Part shown: piece by piece, positions 16,584 to 23,933 of the stretch
Position numbering within the stretch: the first letter of the stretch is position 1
Layout of the letters: each line of letters opens with the position of its first letter
Assembly (NCBI GenBank): GCA_025360395.1
Contig: JANYCH010000199.1
Span: 1-33,910, forward strand
Length of the DNA: 33,910 nt
Direction: 5' to 3'
Source: Cytophagales bacterium
GTDB taxonomy: Bacteria; Bacteroidota; Bacteroidia; Cytophagales; UBA9547
The notes under the pieces: model-generated
Databases searched by the model: none
Told to the model about the DNA's origin: nothing
Seen by the model: only the letters and a program-made list of their open reading frames with translations
Position numbers and translations under genes: made by a program

Positions 16584-16731
16584 GAAATTAATGGTTACTA
16601 TTTAATCAGAAAATTTAAAAAGAAAATGAATAGAATGGATAGAAATAACAATAAAATTTGGCTGAAATATAAAGAATGTCAGAATTAAATATGGATTTAT
16701 TATAAAAATAATTATTATTTCAGAATTAAAT

Positions 16732-16761
16732 TTTGTATTTTAAAATAAATATTTACCTTTG
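16732..16761 (+). promoter_or_regulatory. Bacteroidetes-type promoter: TTTG (16732-16735) - N18 - TACCTTTG (16754-16761)
   Basis: Match to the -33 TTTG / -7 TAnnTTTG consensus with 18-nt spacing. Confidence 0.65.
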
Positions 16762-16764
16762 TTA

Positions 16765-16851
16765 ATGTTCAAGCCCGAACACATATCGACTTCTCTAAGG
16801 TTTAACCAAGACCTTCTCTGCACTTCAGATTTCTGTTGTTGTTGCCGCTAA
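16765..16851 (+). CDS. candidate poly-cysteine leader peptide MFKPEHISTSLRFNQDLLCTSDFCCCCR
   Basis: 28-codon ORF ATGTTCAAGCCC...TTCTGTTGTTGTTGCCGCTAA. It has 5 Cys codons, four of them tandem just before the stop, starts 4 nt after a -7 element, and lies upstream of a small ORF and tRNA-Cys. It was not in the supplied ORF track. Confidence 0.75.
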   Translation: MFKPEHISTSLRFNQDLLCTSDFCCCCR

Positions 16852-16865
16852 CTTTCCGTCGCAAC
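16841..16865 (+). promoter_or_regulatory. hairpin overlapping the Cys codons and stop of the leader peptide
   Basis: GTTGC(16841-16845) pairs with GCAAC(16861-16865), plus inner C-G and G-U pairs after a C/C mismatch. No downstream U-run. Confidence 0.4.
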
Positions 16866-16901
16866 GCCTTCTATCATTTCTTTAATATAAACTTCTTCGA
16901 C

Positions 16902-17171
16902 ATGAATAAGTCAGAAATCAAATTAATAAGTTTTAAAAAATTCTTTACTAAATACTTCAAGTTTCATTCAGACATTATTGTTTTTAACCCGGATGCAGAT
17001 TATTCATATGAATTTAAGGATCCTCGCGTGTCGTTCCTTGAATTGAATATCAACAATGGCAACCAAAGAAAAGATTGGCTGGAGTACAGTTATTATCCCT
17101 TCTTAGGCTCTAGCCTAAATTTAAAAATAAACGATGAAAATGCATTATTTGGTTTTATAGGCAATAATTAA
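16902..17171 (+). CDS. small hypothetical protein between the poly-Cys leader and tRNA-Cys
   Basis: ATG at 16902 (MNKSEIKLISFKKFFTKYFKFHSDIIVFNPDADYSYEFKDPRVSFLEL...); the ORF stays open upstream to 16836. No recognised family. Confidence 0.6.
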   Translation: MNKSEIKLISFKKFFTKYFKFHSDIIVFNPDADYSYEFKDPRVSFLELNINNGNQRKDWLEYSYYPFLGSSLNLKINDENALFGFIGNN

Positions 17172-17177
17172 AAATTT

Positions 17178-17248
17178 GGCTACGTGTCCGAGTGGTTAGG
17201 TACGGGTCTGCAAAACCTTTTACAGCGGTTCGAATCCGCTCGTAGCCT
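17178..17248 (+). tRNA. tRNA-Cys (anticodon GCA)
   Basis: Perfect 7-bp acceptor GGCTACG/CGTAGCC, perfect T-arm AGCGG-TTCGAAT-CCGCT, anticodon loop CTGCAAA, discriminator T73 (Cys identity), CCA not encoded. Confidence 0.93.
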
Positions 17249-17276
17249 CAAGTGAAAGATTTTCTTTTTTAACTAG

Positions 17277-23806: not shown

Positions 23807-23837
23807 TTTGTAATTACTTGAAGCATCCCTATATTTG
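23807..23837 (+). promoter_or_regulatory. Bacteroidetes-type promoter: TTTG - N19 - TATATTTG upstream of the TauE/SafE gene
   Basis: Match to TTTG-N19-TAnnTTTG about 100 nt upstream of the transporter CDS. Confidence 0.65.
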
Positions 23838-23933
23838 AAATGCTTATTTATCTTTTTGAAAACATTCATTCCTTCTGGTTTCTATATCCTTCACAACATA
23901 GATTTTAGGCAGGTATAACAAGACAGAGCCACA

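Follow-up and report, generated by a model that had tools for sequence, protein, structure and literature searches.

In transcription attenuators of the trp, his, ilv and pheST type, the leader reading frame contains many codons for the sensed amino acid and precedes biosynthesis or tRNA-synthetase genes. The leader described here resembles them in having many codons for the amino acid it would sense. However, no intrinsic terminator of the sort that typically separates leader from structural gene in this class was found after it, and the last gene behind it encodes a tRNA, not an enzyme. Contiguous Cys codons are the hallmark of the mycobacterial polycysteine leaderless sORFs (Canestrari et al. 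2020, doi 10.1111/mmi.14498), which two citing papers associate with sulfur-metabolism genes and describe as attenuation via cysteine availability, more precisely as translation attenuation (PMC9031893, PMC13236596). As far as these citing papers portray the mycobacterial attenuators, our locus is like them in that a sORF with contiguous Cys codons, which may be leaderless as well, precedes a sulfur-linked gene. It differs in that it belongs to another phylum, with no sequence relation shown, and in that its transcript would carry tRNA-Cys and a shortened MetY-like protein, to which a paralog adds an encapsulin. Leader-peptide attenuation has also been suggested in Flavobacterium (PMC9723704).

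Family 2A encapsulins (SrpI) are encoded next to sulfur genes and increase when cells are starved of sulfur (PMC8049743). An operon paralogous to our locus has a SrpI-like shell gene and a sulfur context, whereas the locus itself has no encapsulin, and the shell genes in other genomes of the order were found with neither a poly-Cys leader nor a tRNA. A 403-aa protein of the paralogous operon and the N-terminus of an 89-aa ORF in our locus derive from the MetY (O-acetylhomoserine sulfhydrylase) family; unlike MetY, the former has lost the PLP-binding lysine and the latter most of the domain. The principle of leader-peptide attenuation is known, and the cargo is new: a cognate tRNA gene inside the transcript that would be controlled. 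A preliminary description of this DNA, made without literature searches, knew of no such arrangement. In the open-licence literature we likewise found neither a described leader/tRNA-Cys system nor a tRNA gene in a leader-controlled transcript, although the cysteine-leader principle as such is not new, being on record from mycobacteria.

Organization of the locus

The window, i.e. the whole stretch of DNA analysed, comprises 33,910 nt of a Cytophagales bacterium (contig JANYCH010000199.1). A 28-aa sORF, an 89-aa ORF and a tRNA-Cys(GCA) follow each other on its plus strand (Table 1), and ORF calling, ARAGORN and Rfam agree with the order, strand and coordinates in the preliminary description. 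The sORF is short, contains a run of Cys codons and lies close upstream of a gene. No ATG sORF of 15-40 aa with CCCC occurred in 60 simulated windows (window composition, one strand each), so the poly-Cys sORF is not a product of chance. There are 6 nt between the ORF stop and the tRNA, which forms a cloverleaf with the GCA anticodon. Rfam matched the tRNA and, by chance, one site elsewhere in the window, but no regulatory family (T-box, other riboswitches), which rules out a T-box or other known riboswitch for the leader.

Table 1. Features of the leader/ORF/tRNA-Cys locus, in window coordinates.
Feature	Position	Strand	Remarks
Possible -33 element TTTTG	16731..16735	+	18 nt upstream of the -7 box; weak, inferred from sequence
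-7 box TACCTTTG	16754..16761	+	Bacteroidota sigma-A consensus TAnnTTTG; separated from the leader ATG by 3 nt
Poly-Cys leader sORF MFKPEHISTSLRFNQDLLCTSDFCCCCR	16765..16851	+	28 aa, ends CCCCR
5' hairpin TGTTC-AAGCCC-GAACA	16766..16781	+	Inside the leader; folds; invariant in window and G002a
Mid-leader hairpin	16798..16814	+	One compensatory U-A to C-G and one G-U change vs G002a
Long-range helix, 5' arm GATTTCTG	16828..16835	+	Runs into the first Cys codon; pairs with 16912-16919
Four consecutive Cys codons TGT TGT TGT TGC	16834..16845	+	Codons 24-27, then Arg and stop; from sequence
ORF start-codon hairpin ACTTcTTC-GACAT-GAAtAAGT	16891..16911	+	Seven pairs kept in window, G002a and G002b
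89-aa ORF	16902..17171	+	N-terminal ~51 aa homologous to a MetY-like pseudoenzyme; central part missing
Long-range helix, 3' arm CAGAAATC	16912..16919	+	Within ORF codons 4-6
tRNA-Cys(GCA), divergent isodecoder	17178..17249	+	ARAGORN; Rfam 17178-17248, 53.5 bits

Promoter box and probable co-transcription

The plus strand of 16601-17200 contains a single match to TAnnTTTG, the -7 box of the leader. Boxes stand in the equivalent place before the two homologous leaders described below, at 3 nt (TATATTTG, locus G002a) and 4 nt (TAATTTTG, locus G002b) from the ATG. In F. johnsoniae the box occupies positions -12 to -5, 4-5 nt ahead of the TSS (PMC6847099), and applying this spacing to a box 3 nt before the ATG suggests that the sORF is probably leaderless, with transcription starting at or within ~1 nt of the AUG. 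No TAnnTTTG box was found between leader and tRNA-Cys in the scan, 16902-17177 included, and no intrinsic terminator between the two. Co-transcription of leader, ORF and tRNA-Cys had been proposed from the missing box ahead of the tRNA. With one box at the leader, none inside, no terminator, linkage in three loci and a tRNA between protein genes in the paralogous operon, it is still the simplest reading of the DNA, and we consider it likely.

Conservation of the locus and a paralogous operon

A syntenic block (locus G002a) occurs between the same genes in Cytophagales bacterium LF-bin-49 (G002; JACMRH010000519.1), a genome of the same genus whose flanking genes are ~78-79% identical in DNA to those of the window. 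The leader of G002a (MFNPEHISTPLRLLQSLIPASDSCCCCC) again has 28 aa, its ORF again 89 aa (67% identical to the window ORF), and its tRNA-Cys is nearly identical to the window copy. Between the two ORFs, dN and dS are 0.23 and 1.32 by NG86, or 0.26 and 0.88 by YN00; the low dN relative to dS (ratio about 0.17-0.29) indicates purifying selection on the 89-aa ORF and a selected protein gene. The linkage that the preliminary description wanted checked in relatives is thus kept within the genus. Beyond this genus the leader-ORF-tRNA trio was not found, and there are three loci in all.

The third locus, G002b, is on another contig of LF-bin-49 (C403, JACMRH010000071.1) and consists of a leader (MFNPELISQFTRNGNLFFQMFNRCCCCC), the gene of the 403-aa protein, tRNA-Cys and a family 2A encapsulin shell gene, identified by PF19307 and NF041162. 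LF-bin-49 is a bin with 6% contamination, and G002b may stem from a different strain. Its leader has 28 aa and ends in CCCCC, and shares length, N-terminus and -7 box with the window leader; all three homologous leaders can be written M-F-[KN]-P-E-[HL]-I-S...CCCC[RC] and are 28 aa long. The tRNA-Cys lies ~18 nt past the stop of the 403-aa gene and the encapsulin gene ~47 nt past the tRNA.

The 403-aa protein matches Cys_Met_Meta_PP and is nearest to O-acetylhomoserine sulfhydrylase (MetY). Its Schiff-base (PLP) lysine is replaced, SATK being aligned with SLED, and it does not have the lysine expected of MetY. Residues 1-51 of the window ORF are 41% identical to this protein (E 2.2e-5), and a second short stretch can plausibly be aligned; the PLP-lysine region is missing, and no Pfam family matched the 89-aa ORF. 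By this N-terminal match the ORF, at first taken for an orphan, is to be read as an internally shortened pseudo-MetY. The nearest relatives of pseudo-MetY outside the genus come from four genomes, all with encapsulin, and the motif is changed there too. No poly-Cys leader or tRNA was found at the MetY-like homologues in f16/g65. Stand-alone PLP-less MetY-like proteins were seen at L148-L151 (G106, G142, G153, G191), in genomes also carrying family 2A encapsulin, and in G081 (L059) a MetY-like gene adjoins encapsulin. At three encapsulin loci (L060, L061, L064), the shell gene is followed in a fixed order by two genes of ~620-680 and ~280 aa, predicted to be probably cysteine desulfurase and serine acetyltransferase.

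Pseudo-MetY and family 2A encapsulin in the paralogous operon place the leader family, as judged from gene content, in sulfur metabolism. Most simply, the window locus would be a pared-down copy of an operon for the sulfur response, made up of leader, pseudo-MetY, tRNA-Cys and family 2A encapsulin. This would link the sulfur system of family 2A encapsulins with both a tRNA-Cys and a MetY homologue that lacks the PLP lysine.

The leader-linked tRNA-Cys

By eye, the three leader-linked tRNA-Cys have in common U10-U25 and C27-U43 mismatches that were not seen in the other tRNA-Cys of the compared set, and the G002b copy has an additional A1-G72 mismatch. GCA and U73 are retained. The leader-linked tRNA-Cys is possibly a specialised or weakly charged isodecoder. 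Another tRNA-Cys of LF-bin-49 (L053 2015-2086, contig C274) follows an rpsA-like gene at a distance of 31 nt and has no box of its own. The same rpsA/tRNA-Cys order is present in G007; the site was not found in the window's own genome assembly, which is 85% complete.

RNA structure around the leader

Leader and ORF start can form helices (Table 1) that show limited covariation. Across four helices, 98% of the cells are paired in window and G002a, with two compensatory changes, as against at most 52% for slid partners. The same covariation score was reached by 121 of 500 shuffles, the alignment being of two sequences, too few for statistical proof, and the folding energy is unremarkable (z about -1). 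The long-range helix has one compensatory change against G002a, where one of its pairs is lost, and both bases of the compensatory change alter encoded residues; the helix is not evident in G002b. The start-codon hairpin of G002b, in front of the 403-aa version, differs by two U-A to U-G changes. The invariant 5' hairpin may be conserved for the peptide rather than for the RNA.

Proposed regulation and alternative explanations

Our preferred reading, to which we give a probability of about 0.55, is that a Cys-tRNA-sensing leader-peptide translational attenuator heads a transcript with a shortened pseudo-MetY and a divergent tRNA-Cys. Very probably, the leader regulates by way of its cysteine codons. 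In this respect the earlier idea of a sensor stands, whereas the orphan protein that it was thought to control has given way to pseudo-MetY. Transcription would start at or within one nucleotide of the sORF AUG. With ample Cys-tRNA(Cys), we infer, the ribosome would complete the sORF and leave, the helix 16828-16835/16912-16919 and the hairpin 16891-16911 would form, and the ORF would be poorly translated. With scarce Cys-tRNA(Cys), the ribosome would stall on 16834-16845 and cover the 5' arm, which would free the ORF start and turn translation on. Bacteroidota have no Shine-Dalgarno sites, and initiation is tuned by mRNA structure (PMC6847099). Control of ORF translation by the leader has the best anatomical case in the DNA.

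Since no terminator is seen, translational control could reach the tRNA only via polarity or premature termination. Ribosomes translating the ORF might keep premature (Rho-type) termination at bay; more transcript would then reach tRNA-Cys, which RNase P would release. This link between ORF translation and tRNA output is a conjecture. The stronger proposal, that the charging of tRNA-Cys determines how much of a dedicated, divergent tRNA-Cys isodecoder is made from a sulfur-response transcript and so closes a loop between decoding and supply, is tentative, and we would put its chances at somewhat less than even. Such feedback would make good a lack of tRNA or charging capacity, not cysteine starvation, because more tRNA is no help when cysteine is scarce. 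If the tRNA is regulated, cells would adjust tRNA supply through codon-level sensing of charging.

A leader controlling only the downstream protein gene or genes (MetY-like, encapsulin or the short ORF), with tRNA-Cys riding along unaffected and constitutive enough, is rather unlikely but has to be weighed against this loop. The start of the ORF is the target of both the covarying helix and the start-codon hairpin, the interval from leader to tRNA has no terminator, and the tRNA-Cys close behind rpsA shows that travelling on an mRNA is nothing special for such a gene. However, the linkage has been kept though the protein shrank from ~403 to 89 aa and encapsulin is gone at locus G002a, and the other leader targets include cysS, likewise a gene of Cys-tRNA supply. 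It could also be supposed that the tRNA-Cys has an unrecognised promoter of its own inside the ORF and that the leader has nothing to do with it; promoters of tRNA genes need not match the consensus, and some tRNA-Cys of relatives have no TAnnTTTG box within 120 nt. Among 33 tRNA-Cys loci, mostly stand-alone genes of relatives, 24 have a box at most 120 nt upstream, usually at 18-30 nt, vs none of the three leader-linked copies; together with linkage held in three loci, this makes a separate promoter very improbable.

The locus might instead be a decaying relic, a damaged second copy of the encapsulin operon in which leader and ORF are non-functional and the tRNA is kept or decaying. Most of the MetY domain is missing from the ORF, the tRNA has stem mismatches, and encapsulin was found neither in the window nor in the window's own genome assembly (G000, 85% complete). 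Against decay stand the purifying selection on the ORF, the length of exactly 89 aa in both ORFs, and the retention of leader length, Cys run and promoter box while the flanks are ~78% identical, and we regard it as improbable.

Other poly-Cys sORFs

A search of contigs with the 28-codon pattern gave 13 matches, of which the two LF-bin-49 loci and one before cysS in Emticicia are genuine; the other 10 are chance matches, most with in-frame stops or gene overlap. A class-wide search for a TGY run plus stop returned matches mostly without a start codon, and locus L001 was rejected as a chance out-of-frame match. In the window itself (23830-23911), a TAnnTTTG box lies shortly before a 22-aa sORF, upstream of a TauE/SafE gene (23934); conservation of this arrangement was not seen in the G002 alignment.

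In Emticicia sp. EMPMRC01 (L176, JAFEIL010000304.1), a 28-aa CCCCR sORF (MFWFMFCNFVKNTQVMYNPSAFRCCCCR) is located ~150 nt upstream of cysS, which makes it a second leader of this kind, in another Cytophagales genome. A 13-aa CCCM sORF (MILNKYHDRCCCM) lies shortly upstream of cysS in G032 (L203); in most relatives examined, a poly-Cys leader before cysS is absent. The window's own genome has, on contig C223 (L098 4712-4916), a SAM-I riboswitch (RF00162, 59.9 bits) directly followed by a CCCCC sORF (MEEFSVPSAIPFNRYKQLAYCCCCC), then by a terminator-like hairpin and a weak PBP_like_2 match, an arrangement in which dual SAM and cysteine control is possible. No poly-Cys sORF follows the homologous SAM riboswitches in G001 and G003. 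Judged by their neighbours, the scattered poly-Cys leaders near cysS and SAM-I support a role in sulfur metabolism or Cys-tRNA supply.
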